Of a stretch of DNA of 27,672 nt, positions 2,613 through 10,650 are shown in pieces; positions within the stretch are counted from its first letter, which is position 1; every line of letters begins with the position of its first letter. The stretch is from the IMG/VR virus record IMGVR_UViG_3300002223_000020, positions 1 through 27,672 of that record; one strand, given 5' to 3'. This stretch comes from a virus. The notes beneath the pieces were generated by a model. That model did not search any database and had not been told where the DNA came from. It saw only the letters and a list, made by a program, of their open reading frames with translations. The position numbers were made by a program, and so were the translations under genes.

Positions 2613-3008
2613 ATGCACCTTACACTTACAAATCGTGATTTTCTCGTTGGTAAAGTAGTTGACCCTGCTTTCTATCTTGTCAATATTGATGATGTAGAAG
2701 AAGGTTTGTCTAAGGCAGGTGATAGTACTAATTGGGATTTAAAGGCTACTATCATTGCTAATAAGGATACTGGTGATGCAGCATTTGCAGGTGTACCAGT
2801 TCCAAGATGGAGTTTTAATTCCAAAGCACCGGGATTTATTATTCCATTGTATATCTCACTCGGACAGGAATTAAAGCCTGGTGATACTGTTGATCCTAAA
2901 CAGCTTAAAGGTCAAAAGGCTGTTGTTTTTATTGGTAATGATGATTATGAGGATAGGAAAGTAAACTCGCTTGGTAAGGTTCCTAAGTATCGTCCGGTTA
3001 ATGGTTAA
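2613..3008 (+). CDS. SSB-like phage DNA-binding protein (DUF669-like)
   Basis: A 131-residue, beta-rich protein. Its order of elements matches the DUF669-type phage proteins proposed to bind ssDNA: an opening VDPAFYLVNIDDV, then GDSTNWDLKATII, then a GVPV segment, then LGQELKPGD, then GQKAVVFIGNDDYEDRKVN and a short tail. It is preceded by AAGGATAAATCAAA (an AAGGA ribosome site). It follows the Sak4-like ATPase closely, the usual pairing of annealing ATPase with SSB. The assignment comes from pattern memory, not from an alignment. Confidence 0.55.
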   Translation: MHLTLTNRDFLVGKVVDPAFYLVNIDDVEEGLSKAGDSTNWDLKATIIANKDTGDAAFAGVPVPRWSFNSKAPGFIIPLYISLGQELKPGDTVDPKQLKGQKAVVFIGNDDYEDRKVNSLGKVPKYRPVNG

Positions 3009-3359
3009 TTAGTAAATTCTATTAAGTGCTGAAGATGCCGAACAGTACTTAATTAGAAATGGATTCCTATGAATACGCTCGGAATAAATAGGAGTGAAAT
3101 TGGTTGTTCTTGTTAGTCCTCGAACATTAAATGATAGTAAGAGGTACTATCAGCCAAATATAACTCGCCAAATCCATCGAGCACTTTTATCATTTGTTGG
3201 TAGAGGACGAATATGCGTTAGTGCAGTTTCAATACTAGTTAGGCTGCATTAATTCATGACTAAGCACTATCAACAATAGGGTGCGCGTTTTTGAGTTGTC
3301 TCATAGAGAACTAACAATATAAGGCGCGCACCCCCTCGTTTTGATTAATAAGGAATTTT
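3009..3359 (+). ncRNA. Candidate structured RNA / long untranslated region, no recognised gene
   Basis: This is the only gap over 300 bases in the window. It holds a series of inverted repeats: 3021-3030 with 3044-3053 (10 pairs, one G-U); 3063-3070 with 3088-3095 (8 pairs, one G-U); 3132-3139 with 3145-3152 (8 perfect pairs, loop AGAGG); 3164-3167 with 3178-3181; 3181-3185 with 3220-3224, competing with 3221-3226/3244-3249; and a GC-rich 9-pair stem 3279-3287/3325-3333. TTAGTC (3113-3118) is complementary to GACTAA (3258-3263), which could close a multi-branch core. CCTC (3118-3121) could pair with the AGAGG loop. It could be a small RNA or a long 5' leader of the gene at 3360. It does not match any RNA family I can name. 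Confidence 0.4.
3279..3333 (+). promoter_or_regulatory. GC-rich stem-loop upstream of 3360 gene
   Basis: GGGTGCGCG (3279-3287) pairs perfectly with CGCGCACCC (3325-3333). The 37-base loop contains a small inner TCTC-ATA-GAGA hairpin. The sequence after the stem is CCTCGTTTT, a weak U tract, so it may terminate or attenuate transcription before the gene at 3360. Its core words TGCGCGTTTTT and GCGCGC-A-CCCCCT recur at 25690-25717. Confidence 0.4.
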
Positions 3360-3722
3360 ATGTTTCATGTACCTAAATTTGGCAGAATTATAGAAGGAGA
3401 ACTAGCTTCAGATGATTCTTATGGAAATAATGGAGCGTTTATACTTAATTCACCAATAACTGGATGGAAATTAGTGTGTATAGTTTCTGATGCAGGAAAT
3501 TGGGAACATGTATCAGTTCATGCTAGAAGATTTGATATTGAAAGTAGAACTCCAACTTGGGATGAAATGAATAGATTAAAAAATGTATTTTGGGATGAGA
3601 AAGATGTAGTTATTCAATATCATCCTAAGAAATTAAATTATATTAATAGACATCCTAATGTTTTACATATGTGGAGACCAATTGGTATTGTAATTCCCGA
3701 ACCACCTGTTATTTTTGTTTAA
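3360..3722 (+). CDS. DUF7694-like phage protein
   Basis: A 120-residue protein with the recurring phage pattern NWEHVSVHARR ... TPTWDEMNRLKNVFWDEKD ... VIQYHPKKLNYINRHPNVLHMWRP. I recognise this pattern (W-E-H-V-S-V, P-T-W-x-E-M, F-W-D-x-E, Q-Y-H-P, H-x-W-R-P) from a widespread uncharacterised phage family, DUF7694. It has an AAGGA ribosome site (AATAAGGAATTTT) and follows the structured intergenic region, so it may be controlled by it. Function is unknown. Confidence 0.65.
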   Translation: MFHVPKFGRIIEGELASDDSYGNNGAFILNSPITGWKLVCIVSDAGNWEHVSVHARRFDIESRTPTWDEMNRLKNVFWDEKDVVIQYHPKKLNYINRHPNVLHMWRPIGIVIPEPPVIFV

Positions 3723-3964: not shown

Positions 3965-4179
3965 TGAGTTGGGATTATATTTTAATTGATGAAGATACAA
4001 TATTATGTCAACAAATTGAAAATAGATTTGTTGAATATATATTATCAATAACACCTAATGAGATGAAACAAGAAGTTGAATCAAACTTGAGAATGAAAAT
4101 TCAAGATATTCTTTTTGATGAATTTGAACAATTTGTTGGTCGTAGAGCTAAAAGATTAAAAACTAATGGAGTTGATTAA
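3964..4179 (+). CDS. Small acidic hypothetical protein
   Basis: A 71-residue protein, mostly predicted helical, with an acidic start (DYILIDEDTILCQQIENRF) and a basic end (GRRAKRLK). It is coupled to the HTH gene by a one-base overlap and sits just before a cold-shock gene. No family was recognised. Confidence 0.55.
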   Translation: MSWDYILIDEDTILCQQIENRFVEYILSITPNEMKQEVESNLRMKIQDILFDEFEQFVGRRAKRLKTNGVD

Positions 4180-4182
4180 GTA

Positions 4183-4446
4183 ATGAAAGAAGCAGAAGTA
4201 AAAGAACTTAATATTATGGATGAAATTACTAATCGTCTAACTGGAACAATTATTCATATTAATCCTAAAGGATTTGGATTTATTAATTCTAAGGAGAAAC
4301 CATTTACTAGAATCTTCTTTCATTGGCAAGCACTAAATCATAAGATTGAATTTGAGAAATTAGTTATAGGAACTAAAGTTAGTTTTGAATTGAAAAAGAA
4401 CGAAGATGGTGGTTGGCGTGGAATTAGGATTGAATTGGTGAATTAA
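4183..4446 (+). CDS. Cold-shock-domain protein
   Basis: An 87-residue protein with a complete cold-shock (OB) domain at about residues 18-86. The RNP1-like motif is KGFGFI, the RNP2-like motif is RIFFHW, followed by GTKVSFELKKNEDGGWRGIRI. CspA-family proteins bind single-stranded nucleic acid and melt RNA structure. An N-terminal extension of ~17 charged residues precedes the domain. A second, divergent cold-shock protein lies at 9626. In this phage it could act as an RNA chaperone or antiterminator. Confidence 0.8.
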   Translation: MKEAEVKELNIMDEITNRLTGTIIHINPKGFGFINSKEKPFTRIFFHWQALNHKIEFEKLVIGTKVSFELKKNEDGGWRGIRIELVN

Positions 4447-4798: not shown

Positions 4799-5230
4799 AT
4801 GAATAAAGCTATAACGTCTGAAAATGTAGAACAAAGACTTTTATCTAAACGAAAAATAGATAAAAGTACTGGTTGTTGGTTATATACTGGAGCCTTATCA
4901 AGAGGTTATGGAGCAATACAGTTTAATTATAAATCAGAAAAAGTTCACAGACTTTCTGCAATGTTATATTTGAAGTACGACCTAAATCATCCTTATCTTA
5001 TTGTTTTACATAAAAATATTTGTCCAAATAAACATTGTTTCAATCCGGAGCACATTTATATTGGTTCCCACGGAGAAAATGTAAGTGATTCAATTATTGC
5101 TGGAACACATAGATCGTTAGTAGAACAAAATAAAATAATGTGTTCGAAAGGCCATTTATATACTCAAGAAAATACTCATATAAGCAAAAAAGGAAAAAGG
5201 GTATGTAAAAAATGTGGCGGGTGGGCATAA
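4799..5230 (+). CDS. HNH homing endonuclease (first copy)
   Basis: A 143-residue protein of the HNH_3 type. Order of features: a GCWLYTG segment (~25-31), GYGAIQF, VHRLS with the first His, then a Cys/His-rich core HKNICPNKHCFNPEHIYIG, then GENVSDSI. The C-terminal module is CSKGHLYTQENT ... CKKC, a second zinc knuckle. Such free-standing enzymes cut DNA at intronless alleles to spread themselves. It ends directly against the polymerase ATG (TAAATG). A homologous copy with the same module order overlaps the polymerase 3' end. Confidence 0.85.
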   Translation: MNKAITSENVEQRLLSKRKIDKSTGCWLYTGALSRGYGAIQFNYKSEKVHRLSAMLYLKYDLNHPYLIVLHKNICPNKHCFNPEHIYIGSHGENVSDSIIAGTHRSLVEQNKIMCSKGHLYTQENTHISKKGKRVCKKCGGWA

Positions 5231-7741
5231 ATGCAAGTATATGTACCTGGCATTGGACCTAGAAATCCTAGAATTTGTTTTGTAGGAGAAAGTCCAAGCT
5301 ACGACGAAGAAGTTACTGGTAAACCATTTACTGGTCCAAGTGGTAAGTTCTTTAATATGCTCTTATCTGCTGTAGGTATTAATCGTGATGAATGTTGGGT
5401 TACTAATGCATGTAAATTCATGGTTCCATCTAATCCTAAAAAAGGTAAGAAAGTTTCATTTAAAGTTCGTGCTAATTCAGTAGGAATAGATTTAGATCAA
5501 CAGTTCAATGAATTACATACAGAAATTTCTCAACTTAAACCTAACGTAATTGTTCCTTTAGGTGGAACTGCTTTATATGCATTAACTGGAAAGAGCGGTA
5601 AAAAAGATAAAGAAGGTAATTATGTAGCTGGTGGTATTCAAGCATGGCGCGGTAGTATTATAAATGGAATGGGATTTAAGTGCGTACCTACTTATCATCC
5701 AGCACATATATTACATCAAGATGGTGATGTTAAAGGTTATTGGAATAAAGAAGTAATGCTATTTGATTTAAGACGTGCTAAGATTCAATCTGATTTCCCT
5801 GAAATACGTACACCAAAACGTAATATAATTATTATCAAATCTTCGTGGCAGTTAGAACAGTTATTAAATAAATATTCGTCATCCATTCATCCATCTATTG
5901 ACATTGAAGCTCATAAATGTATTCCAATAATGATGGGTACTGCTTTTAATAAAGATGAAGCATTTGTATTACCTATGTGGGAAAACTATTCATCAATGCC
6001 AAAGAATGAGATAGTTAGATGTTGGTTATTGTATTCCAACTTCTTATCTCAACATGATGTAATAGGACAAAACTTTGGTTATGATAGAGATAAAATAAAA
6101 CGATTTGGATTTACAGTGCGCGGTTTGCAAGATGATACAATGTATAAATCATTTGCAATAAATCCCGAACTACCTAAAGGACTTGCTTTTAATACTTCAA
6201 TATTTACTGAAGAACCTTATTATAAAGATGAAGGAATGTATGAAGGTTCTTTAGATGATTTAATGATAGGTTGTGGTAAGGATTGTTGTGTAACAAAAGA
6301 AATTAATGATGCAATGCAGTCTGATATAGATGAGTTACACTTAAATGATTATTATCGTAATTTCCTTCTTCCATTACATTCACTTTATGCTTTTAATGAA
6401 ACTGATACCGCAATAGAACAAGTTGGATTTCGTTGTAATGAAGATGTACGTCGCGAACTCATTACTAAATATATTGAACGCGATGAACAGCAACGTCATG
6501 AGTTATTTCATATTACTAAGGAATATATCAATACTGGTTCATGGCAACAGGTAGGTAAGTTACTTTATGAAACTTGGAAATTACCACTTCGTCAAGGAAC
6601 TGGTGAAGAAGTATTGATTAGCTTACTTAATAATGTAGTTAAGAATCCAGTTCATGCTCGTGGAATAGAACTAATATTAGAAAATCGTAGAGTTAAGAAA
6701 ACACTTGATTCTTATTTATATGCATTACCAGATTTTGATGGGCGAATGAGAACAAGTTTCTTTTTATGTTTAGAAACCGGCCGTTCTTCTACTACTCAAC
6801 AAGACCCACCAATAAGACCTAATGTTGAATATAAGAAAGTTAATGAGTCTGGTGTTAAAGTTAAACGTAAGCAATCGCGCGGTATGGCATTTCAGACTAT
6901 TACTAAACATGGTGATATTGGTCAAGATATAAGAAGGTTTTTAGTTCCTGATGAAGGTTGCATATTTGTTCAAGGCGATTTATCTCAAGCTGAAGCACGA
7001 GTTATATTTAAATTAGCTGGTGATTATGATGCCTTAGAGCTAATTGATAAAGTTGATTATCATGCATTAACCGCATCATGGTTTTTTGGTGGTGAATGGC
7101 AAGAACATTCAAAGAAGTTTAACAATGGTAAAGAAACGCCAATTAGGTTCTGTGGTAAAACTTTGCGACATGCATGCCATCTTGGAGCGTCAAAAAAACG
7201 CGCTTCCATTGAAGTTAATACTCAGGCTCGCAAGAATAAAATTGATTTCAGAATCTCTGAACTCGTGGCAGACCGCGCAATTAAAATCTTTCATAGGAAG
7301 CAACCGAAGATAAAAGAAGTATTCCATCTAGGTATTCAACAAGCATTACAAAAAGACGGGAGATTAATTGCTCCAATACCTTATGGAATAGATGCTGAAG
7401 TTGGTGGAATTAGAACTTTCTTTGAACGATGGGGAGATGAATTATTTAGACAAGCATATAGTTATATTCCTCAGCGTACTGTAAGTGAGCATTTAAAAGC
7501 TGCTGCAATGAGAATTAGAAGTCGCGCGCCTTGGATATTAATATTAGTTGAAGCTCATGATGCGCTATTGACAATGGTAAGAATTGAGAGGAAGTTAGAA
7601 GCTGGATTAATAATTAAAGAAGAACTTGAAAAACCAATTAATTTTGATAAGTGTACATTAGGTGAAGGTAACTTAATTATACCAGTTGAACTAGAATATG
7701 GACACAATTATCAAGAGCTTTCAAGATTTGAAATTAAATAG
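5231..7741 (+). CDS. UDG-like domain fused to family A DNA polymerase with 3'-5' exonuclease
   Basis: An 836-residue fusion, the likely replicative polymerase. Residues ~1-190 match family 4/5 uracil-DNA glycosylases: GESPSYDEE ... GKPFTGPSGKFF, WVTNACKF, LGGTALYALTG, and a HPAHIL motif near 156. The CxxC and C-x3-L cysteines of Fe-S UDGs are not visible. Exonuclease motifs: Exo I D224-I-E226; Exo II N281-F-G-Y-D285; Exo III D351 in GCGKDCC, with Gly347 where Tyr is usual. Polymerase motifs: A at D583 (GDLSQAEAR); B R639...K643...H647 (RFCGKTLRHACHLG); C at H776-D777-A778 (EAHDALL) instead of HDE. Both catalytic aspartates are present. Fusions of this type occur in environmental phages. HNH genes flank it on both sides. 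Confidence 0.9.
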   Translation: MQVYVPGIGPRNPRICFVGESPSYDEEVTGKPFTGPSGKFFNMLLSAVGINRDECWVTNACKFMVPSNPKKGKKVSFKVRANSVGIDLDQQFNELHTEISQLKPNVIVPLGGTALYALTGKSGKKDKEGNYVAGGIQAWRGSIINGMGFKCVPTYHPAHILHQDGDVKGYWNKEVMLFDLRRAKIQSDFPEIRTPKRNIIIIKSSWQLEQLLNKYSSSIHPSIDIEAHKCIPIMMGTAFNKDEAFVLPMWENYSSMPKNEIVRCWLLYSNFLSQHDVIGQNFGYDRDKIKRFGFTVRGLQDDTMYKSFAINPELPKGLAFNTSIFTEEPYYKDEGMYEGSLDDLMIGCGKDCCVTKEINDAMQSDIDELHLNDYYRNFLLPLHSLYAFNETDTAIEQVGFRCNEDVRRELITKYIERDEQQRHELFHITKEYINTGSWQQVGKLLYETWKLPLRQGTGEEVLISLLNNVVKNPVHARGIELILENRRVKKTLDSYLYALPDFDGRMRTSFFLCLETGRSSTTQQDPPIRPNVEYKKVNESGVKVKRKQSRGMAFQTITKHGDIGQDIRRFLVPDEGCIFVQGDLSQAEARVIFKLAGDYDALELIDKVDYHALTASWFFGGEWQEHSKKFNNGKETPIRFCGKTLRHACHLGASKKRASIEVNTQARKNKIDFRISELVADRAIKIFHRKQPKIKEVFHLGIQQALQKDGRLIAPIPYGIDAEVGGIRTFFERWGDELFRQAYSYIPQRTVSEHLKAAAMRIRSRAPWILILVEAHDALLTMVRIERKLEAGLIIKEELEKPINFDKCTLGEGNLIIPVELEYGHNYQELSRFEIK

Positions 7742-8228
7742 TAAGTTATGTTATCGTTTAATTTCAAAAACCAAAATTGATATAGAAACTGAATGTTGGT
7801 TATGGATTGGAGGTATAAGTGGTAAAAGCCAAACTAGTAATGGTGGTTATGGAATGGTATGGTATAATGGAGGAATGAGATATATCCATAGGTTATCAGC
7901 ACATTTATTTTTAGACTATAATTTTCTTAGTACATTACAAGTGAATCATAAATGTAATAATAAGAACTGTTGGAATCCAGGACATTTATATATTGGAACG
8001 CAAGCTGAAAATATAAATGATACAATAATAAATAAAAGATTAGAACCAGGAATTCATAATACAATTAAAACACATTGTCCCCAAGGTCATGAGTACAACG
8101 AAGAAAATACTTATACTCATCCAATAAAAGGCAGACAATGTAGAACCTGTAAAAATGAATCTCAACAGGAACGAAGAAAAGAAGAAACTGAAATGATTAA
8201 AAAATTTGGCGGAATTGGGGAAGTTTAA
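7698..8228 (+). CDS. HNH homing endonuclease (second copy, overlaps polymerase 3' end)
   Basis: About 176 residues. The order ECWLWIGG, GGYGMVWY, IHRLSAH, a CNNKNCWNPGHLYIG core, ENINDTI, and a C-terminal CPQGHEYNEENT ... CRTC knuckle parallels the first HNH protein almost module for module. The upstream ATG at 7698 lies inside the polymerase gene (44-base overlap) and has no clear ribosome site. A TTG at 7728 is an alternative start, and homology to the first copy begins only after ~18 residues. It probably arrived as a homing gene at the end of the polymerase gene. Confidence 0.8.
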   Translation: MDTIIKSFQDLKLNSKLCYRLISKTKIDIETECWLWIGGISGKSQTSNGGYGMVWYNGGMRYIHRLSAHLFLDYNFLSTLQVNHKCNNKNCWNPGHLYIGTQAENINDTIINKRLEPGIHNTIKTHCPQGHEYNEENTYTHPIKGRQCRTCKNESQQERRKEETEMIKKFGGIGEV

Positions 8229-10203: not shown

Positions 10204-10280
10204 GCCCCAGTATTCCAATAGGCAGAGAAAAATGACTTAAAATCATTAAAGTGTCAGTTCGAATCTGACCTGGGGCACCA
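10204..10280 (+). tRNA. tRNA-Leu(UAA), short variable loop, CCA encoded
   Basis: Acceptor GCCCCAG (10204-10210) pairs with CTGGGGC (10270-10276), followed by A73 and an encoded CCA. D-arm stem TTC/GAA is weak (3 pairs). Anticodon stem AATGA/TCATT (10231-10235/10243-10247) has loop CTTAAAA, giving anticodon UAA, which reads UUA. The T arm is GTCAG-TTCGAAT-CTGAC (10253-10269). The variable region is only 5 bases, whereas bacterial Leu tRNAs normally have a long variable arm. UUA appears to be the commonest Leu codon in this window by eye, which would explain keeping the gene. Confidence 0.85.
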
Positions 10281-10557: not shown

Positions 10558-10565
10558 TTATTAAT

Positions 10566-10639
10566 GGGCCAATAGCTCAAATGGTCAGAGCAAATGACTC
10601 ATAATCATTAGGTTATAGGTTCAAATCCTATTTGGCCCA
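10566..10639 (+). tRNA. tRNA with CAU anticodon (Met elongator or Ile2)
   Basis: Acceptor GGGCCAA (10566-10572) pairs with TTGGCCC (10632-10638), then A73; CCA is not encoded. D arm GCTC ... GAGC. Anticodon stem AATGA/TCATT with loop CTCATAA gives CAU. T arm is ATAGG-TTCAAAT-CCTAT. Position 1-72 is a normal G-C pair and the anticodon stem lacks three G-C pairs, so it is not an initiator. CAU could be Met or, if C34 becomes lysidine, Ile2 reading AUA; AUA is common in this AT-rich genome. The anticodon stem is identical to that of the upstream tRNA. Confidence 0.9.
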
Positions 10640-10650
10640 TATCAAATTTT

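Follow-up and report, generated by a model that had tools for sequence, protein, structure and literature searches.

Genes around the intergenic region

The stretch of DNA analysed here, termed the window, is a virus record of 27,672 nucleotides (27.7 kb; IMG/VR record IMGVR_UViG_3300002223_000020), to which a 46.7-kb IMG/VR contig (L002/L003) is near-identical over the region of interest. That region is a gap at 3009-3359, which sits between two genes:

2613..3008, + strand: SSB-like OB-fold gene, upstream of the RNA elements described below (AlphaFold2 model and structure matches)
3360..3722, + strand: DUF7694 gene, the next real gene 3′ of the second RNA element (Pfam PF24746, E 3.3e-23)

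The AlphaFold2 model of the upstream product has a pLDDT of 94, and its top match in the PDB is the ssDNA-binding protein PrgE (8s4t, E 2e-4), followed by bacterial SSBs. PrgE is a plasmid ssDNA-binding protein. A relative of the window protein matches phrog_378 (single strand DNA binding protein), and the predicted SSB-like identity of the 2613-3008 product holds on the modelled fold.

Upstream of the SSB-like gene lies a gene for a Sak4-like ATPase, and downstream of the gap a UDG-PolA fusion (5231-7741), in which a uracil-DNA glycosylase domain occupies the N-terminus of a family A DNA polymerase. HNH-like genes flank this polymerase on both sides (4799-5230 and 7698-8228), and the same operon encodes tRNA-Leu(taa) at 10204-10280 and tRNA-Met(cat) at 10565-10640. 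By polymerase queries and SSB alignment we gathered more than 150 related loci, many with the same operon order. The region has no meaningful DNA similarity to known phages, and a search for the host via genome contigs gave two distant loci only, both without the two RNA elements. The carriers of both elements form a clade of uncultured tailed phages with a long rightward replication operon, where the elements sit mid-operon, about 8 kb from the divergent operon start in one genome (G001) and about 11 kb in another (G018).

Folding of the gap

The plus strand of the gap folds to -103.3 kcal/mol, whereas shuffled versions average -74.6 (z -5.4; 0/100 shuffles); the reverse strand folds more weakly (z -3.8). 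The signal is carried by 3014-3058 (z -5.2) and 3194-3340 (z -5.8). Nested folding does not single out the pseudoknotted middle of the gap (z -1.8), a result to be expected when a pseudoknot is treated in this way. All four helices named beforehand were found, at 3021-3031/3043-3053, 3065-3070/3088-3093, 3132-3139/3145-3152 and 3279-3291/3321-3333. The second of these, previously drawn at 3063-3095, is helix P2 of an element that we call PK1, and the last, drawn at 3279-3333, is the 13-bp helix B of an element that we call RNA2.

The gap had been described as gene-free. It holds a 52-aa ORF at 3094-3252, whose relative occurs solely in the near-identical phage contig; a protein-coding reading was therefore dropped, and on this evidence we take the gap to be non-coding. 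The idea of an undescribed phage RNA or leader stood in part: strong covariation, sense-strand bias and the lack of an Rfam match speak for it, whereas the gap comprises at least two independent elements rather than a single multibranch small RNA. One multibranch structure closed by long-range pairing of TTAGTC with GACTAA was rejected, since the two strands belong to different elements and comparative support is absent. In homologous regions, we found compensatory changes for P1 and P2 of PK1 and for the helices of RNA2. This comparative sequence analysis confirmed, as predicted structures, at least two separate conserved RNA elements, PK1 and RNA2.

PK1, a conserved pseudoknot element

PK1 occupies the middle of the gap, with the following parts:

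3057..3192, + strand: PK1 pseudoknot element, whole model match (R2 model, family alignment A4)
3060..3064, + strand: P1 5′ strand TGGAT, pairs with 3172-3176
3065..3070, + strand: P2 5′ strand TCCTAT, pairs with 3088-3093
3077..3081, + strand: pseudoknot 5′ strand GCTCG, within the conserved loop AATACGCTCGGAAT, pairs with 3178-3182
3088..3093, + strand: P2 3′ strand ATAGGA, pairs with 3065-3070
3094..3171, + strand: variable insert (P3 position), holding the hairpin 3132-3139/3145-3152
3172..3182, + strand: P1 3′ strand ATCCA, one base, and pseudoknot 3′ strand CGAGC

Thus P1 (TGGAT/ATCCA) encloses P2, a variable hairpin, from whose loop GCTCG pairs with CGAGC directly 3′ of P1. The element came to light through a shared 20-nt match, then through CCATCGAG and ACGCTCGG, and the family was defined by pattern scans and alignment A4. 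Its consensus runs from NUGGA(U) of P1 through P2 with the loop AAUACGCUCGGAAU, a variable insert and the P1 3′ strand to one base and CGAGC, usually followed by a U-rich stretch. The insert varies among relatives in both length and sequence. A pseudoknot had been proposed between CCTC and an AGAGG loop; these strands lie within the insert and lack comparative support, and the pseudoknot that has such support lies elsewhere, between GCTCG at 3077-3081 and CGAGC at 3178-3182.

All members in A4 keep P1 paired (100%), and two of its pairs carry double changes; in P2, double changes occur at 6/6 modelled pairs. Across the family, 93% of the pairs are standard, against 79.5% in shuffled and 30-46% in slid alignments (covariation, 0/500). 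The pseudoknot core CTCG/CGAG is invariant in 18/18 members, and the outer pair is G-C or G-U in 16/18. The sequence conservation of PK1 owes something to the search pattern by which the members were collected. With a helix almost invariant, covariation neither proves nor refutes the pairing, and the pseudoknot rests on conservation and geometry. A covariance model, R2, built from 18 other sequences with the window excluded, gives the window 63.5 bits (E 3.5e-12), the next best match scoring 12 bits. Scores of clear members lie at 56-77 bits, those of chance matches at about 24 or below. Matches of roughly 20-24 bits (L214, L224 and others) look like chance. One 19-bit match (L248) resembles, by eye, a divergent PK1 with an extra insert.

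We count about 20 distinct instances. Most lie 3′ of an SSB-like gene and 5′ of a small, very acidic ORF, an arrangement found even where the polymerase is 31% identical (L234). Elsewhere PK1 precedes a small membrane-like ORF (L134, L154) or the csp gene, just after RNA2 (L228). It is present once in 15/17 records and twice in those of L154 and L234, before different genes. For two loci with PK1 (L217, L237), an SSB-like or polymerase relative was not found in the sequence stretch examined. HNH endonuclease-like genes lie directly 5′ of PK1 in two phages (L065, 3018-3311; L217, 3149-3484). The 3′ pseudoknot strand is placed in the leader of the next gene, 5′ of its Shine-Dalgarno sequence (SD). 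PK1 and RNA2 are separable, each occurring without the other.

RNA2, two abutting helices

The second element follows PK1 and comprises:

3194-3345, + strand: RNA2, whole element
3194..3203, + strand: helix A 5′ strand TTGTTGGTAG, pairs with 3267-3276
3267..3278, + strand: helix A 3′ strand CTATCAACAA and linker TA, the linker being conserved in the family
3279..3333, + strand: helix B, 13 bp (3279-3291/3321-3333), with apical domain (R1 match)
3334..3345, + strand: tail CCTCGTTTTGAT, where the family has GCYUUUU

In relatives, helix A is joined by a 2-nt YA linker to helix B, which has 12-13 bp and a conserved internal loop and is followed by GCYUUUU. The last linker base is A in 64/65 elements, and the base before it is T or C, also in 64/65. 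Helix A covaries in 54 sequences, each of its 10 pairs being 85-100% paired. Over 48 sequences, window excluded, 95.7% of cells are paired, against 67.4% when shuffled and 42-48% when slid; double-change cells number 218 against 52, with changes on both sides in 15/16 modelled pairs. In a held-out test, 459/468 helix B cells were paired among 39 distinct sequences. G-U pairs far outnumber A.C mismatches in helix B (36:0 in the training set, 41:2 in the held-out set) and helix A (73:11), a count somewhat biased because the helix search scores G-U and not A.C, yet nearly every complete locus gave the helix. This asymmetry indicates that RNA2 acts as sense RNA.

We tallied 123 hits, representing 86 distinct sequences, with one locus per genome where the element is present; two hits near both ends of one contig (G026) are alike in score and so probably represent one repeated end. 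The R1 model, built without the window, finds its best window match at exactly 3271-3345 (15.5 bits, E 0.017). Scored for the joint architecture of helix A, two linker bases ending in A and helix B, the window reaches 52.5, against at most 35.0 in 300 shuffles (beating 300/300). Model match, position and architecture together identify a divergent RNA2 in the window, an assignment that is firm by position and architecture and modest by model score alone; the window tail is atypical against the family GCYUUUU. The second copy of ACTATCA, formerly taken to compete for the 3132 stem in a two-state switch, instead pairs with 3194-3203 to form helix A, and conserved competition with that stem was not seen.

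RNA2 lies mostly 18-40 nt 5′ of the next start codon in relatives; in the window, the DUF7694 gene starts 26 nt past helix B. It stays in place whether csp, DUF7694 or another gene comes next, and also where the acidic ORF is missing. A leader specific to the DUF7694 gene was not borne out, because the genes after the elements vary among relatives, PK1 standing mostly before the small acidic ORF and RNA2 mostly before a cold-shock-domain gene. RNA2 was not found in Mel-JY34, LS06, two spring phages or two MAG contigs, all of them distant but with this type of operon. In one of them, Desulfofustis phage LS06 (L206), a perfect 18-bp hairpin lies at 4320-4400 after a candidate SSB-like gene, without an RNA2 match. 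We also discarded a third helix between the tail and the 5′ flank of helix A, as its native pairing fell below permuted controls; hits from the first pattern scan in L036, L037 and L042 proved to be chance, with no R1 match.

Hairpins and alternative pseudoknots behind the SSB-like gene

Between the SSB-like stop codon and PK1 stands one further structure:

3017..3058, + strand: hairpin directly after the SSB-like stop, an extension of 3021-3031/3043-3053 (z -5.2)

Many relatives have a strong hairpin at the same site, some with another loop pseudoknot, and its sequence is not conserved; for the loop of the window hairpin, a supported pseudoknot partner was not found. Where relatives lack PK1, the site is often taken by a hairpin of 12-14 bp, the loop of which pairs with downstream bases immediately 5′ of the SD (GACCTA/TAGGTC, GGGCCAT/ATGGCCC, GACCTTA/TAAGGTC or GGCCTA/TAGGCC). 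In 23 such sequences the native loop-downstream pairing exceeds 1000/1000 permutations, a count that is no strict probability as the sequences are related. Pseudoknots of the GACCTA/TAGGTC type take the place of PK1 in ten loci (L009, L011, L012, L016, L051, L064, L072, L096, L113 and L118). This suggests that the presence of a pseudoknot ahead of the gene following the SSB-like gene, whichever form it takes, is itself under selection.

The acidic ORF and its possible remnant

Nearly all relatives examined have a small ORF of extreme acidity after the SSB-like gene, with csp commonly next. Between these two genes (L004-L033, L043-L121), it encodes roughly 45-90 aa with more than 27% D/E, and its product may mimic DNA or may serve as an acidic tail of SSB supplied in trans. 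In L004, a tRNA-Leu-like sequence, recognised by eye, lies at about 4100-4190 between the SSB-like gene and the acidic ORF. The ORF is absent from the window and from L022. At its place, the window has:

3213..3221, + strand: two-codon frame ATG CGT TAG, with GAGGA upstream

With its good SD, this frame looks like a deletion remnant or a minigene.

Relation to known systems and competing explanations

Neither the gap in the window nor the elements in relatives match Rfam 15, and descriptions of PK1 or RNA2 were not found in the open-access literature. We rate them as two new families among phage cis-acting structured RNAs, in an unusual arrangement. For PK1, the T4 gene 32 operator offers a parallel, being a pseudoknot in a phage early mRNA, 5′ of the ribosome binding site (PMC535899). 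In the window and the family, the putative pseudoknot of PK1 likewise precedes an SD in the neighbourhood of a gene for an ssDNA-binding protein. However, the site bound by T4 gp32 is in the leader of gene 32 itself, whereas PK1 sits 3′ of the SSB-like gene in the window and most relatives, before another small gene, and it differs in its closing helix (P1), internal hairpin and variable insert. The nearest described pseudoknot RNA close to ssDNA-binding protein genes is the STAXI motif (RF01728), with 2-3 tandem pseudoknots and frequent UUCG loops in Enterobacteriales (PMC2864571). PK1, by contrast, is usually single-copy and does not match RF01728, for which there was no hit in window 2950-3420 up to E 10, nor in L154, L134, L065 or L187 up to E 3. 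PK1 might also be a ligand-binding riboswitch, in which the invariant loop AAUAC-GCUCG-GAAU, flanking the pseudoknot, would form a small-molecule pocket through which translation of the following gene is gated. Its small, compact pseudoknot architecture, fixed loop letters on varying stems, and a 3′ pseudoknot strand in the leader before the ribosome site would suit such a role; the genes behind it (acidic ORF, small membrane protein, csp, unknowns) lack a metabolic theme, no Rfam riboswitch match was found, and PK1 is so far confined to phage contigs, which leaves this reading improbable. An equally improbable reading makes RNA2 an antiterminator that modifies RNA polymerase, its nascent stem-loops suppressing downstream pausing and termination as in HK022 put. 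The put RNAs are about 70 nt, lie downstream of early promoters and consist of two stem-loops meeting at a single unpaired nucleotide (PMC9378689), and the two adjacent stem-loops, fixed 2-nt linker and conserved junction of RNA2 resemble this design in putL and putR. Against it, RNA2 is mid-operon, some 8 kb (G001) to 11 kb (G018) in and not beside a promoter, though an internal promoter is possible; its linker has two nucleotides, its helix lengths differ, its long helix A domain varies greatly in size, and we saw no sequence resemblance.

Phage mRNAs also contain processing hairpins cut by RNase III, of the T7 type. Helix B is similarly stable, intergenic and mid-operon, with an internal loop; the paired helices, fixed YA linker and conserved tail set RNA2 apart from these hairpins, and cleavage is putative. 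The GC-rich hairpin with its short U run (GCYUUUU) recalls an intrinsic terminator, yet 0/54 elements pass the d'Aubenton Carafa score (our own implementation), a terminator scan of the window stretch finds none, and the conserved helix A and apical internal loop are atypical of terminators; we rejected this reading as highly implausible. The elements could instead be DNA structures, such as a replication origin or protein-binding hairpins in single-stranded DNA, as the adjoining SSB-like and replication genes and the single RNA2 locus per genome might suggest. The excess of G-U over A.C, expected only for sense-strand RNA, largely refutes this, and the plus strand folds better than its reverse; an RNA primer at an origin is what remains of a very improbable idea. 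That the gap yields a trans-acting small RNA, processed from the operon transcript, accords with a stable, structured 350 nt that has no conserved reading frame. It is nonetheless improbable, given that the elements lie directly in gene leaders and are separable, PK1 occurring without RNA2 and the reverse, and that no conserved unpaired seed was noticed.

Proposed roles in the replication operon

PK1 and RNA2 are selected structures, at conserved positions behind the SSB-like gene, and most likely both control the expression of neighbouring replication genes. The reading that we tentatively prefer, at a little under even confidence, is of two cis-acting leader elements: PK1 as a translational operator and RNA2 as a mid-operon boundary of processing or stability, with the acidic ORF lost from the window. 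A phage or host factor would bind PK1 and mask or open the ribosome site of the next gene, the first candidate being the SSB-like OB-fold protein from the adjoining upstream gene, on the pattern of T4, where gp32 binds a pseudoknot in its mRNA. That PK1 occurs before several unrelated small genes weakens the case for a gene-specific operator. RNA2, with its two abutting helices and conserved junction, would mark the boundary at which the mRNA is processed or protected, separating SSB output from that of downstream cold-shock or other genes. As RNA2 is kept when the next gene changes or the acidic ORF is absent, it more probably acts on the transcript at that point than on behalf of one gene; among such functions we considered processing, protection and polymerase modification. 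The window would then have lost the acidic ORF, with ATG-CGT-TAG left over, and kept both RNAs. Less probable, and in our view unlikely, is an undescribed PK1 regulon in which the phage's own SSB (or a ligand) would read the compact pseudoknot, so that the level of ssDNA during replication is coupled to translation of a DNA-mimic-like acidic protein, while RNA2 partitions the operon transcript.

These elements add two structured RNA families outside Rfam with strong comparative support (86 distinct RNA2 and about 20 PK1 sequences), both at a set position 3′ of the gene for the ssDNA-binding protein in a widespread clade of uncultured phages. Small D/E-rich ORFs next to phage SSB genes appear here as part of a conserved module with structured leaders. 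As cis-regulatory parts of a phage replication operon, PK1 and RNA2 are concrete and open to experiment, and through them a feedback loop linked to SSB may come to light in phages that are not related to T4.
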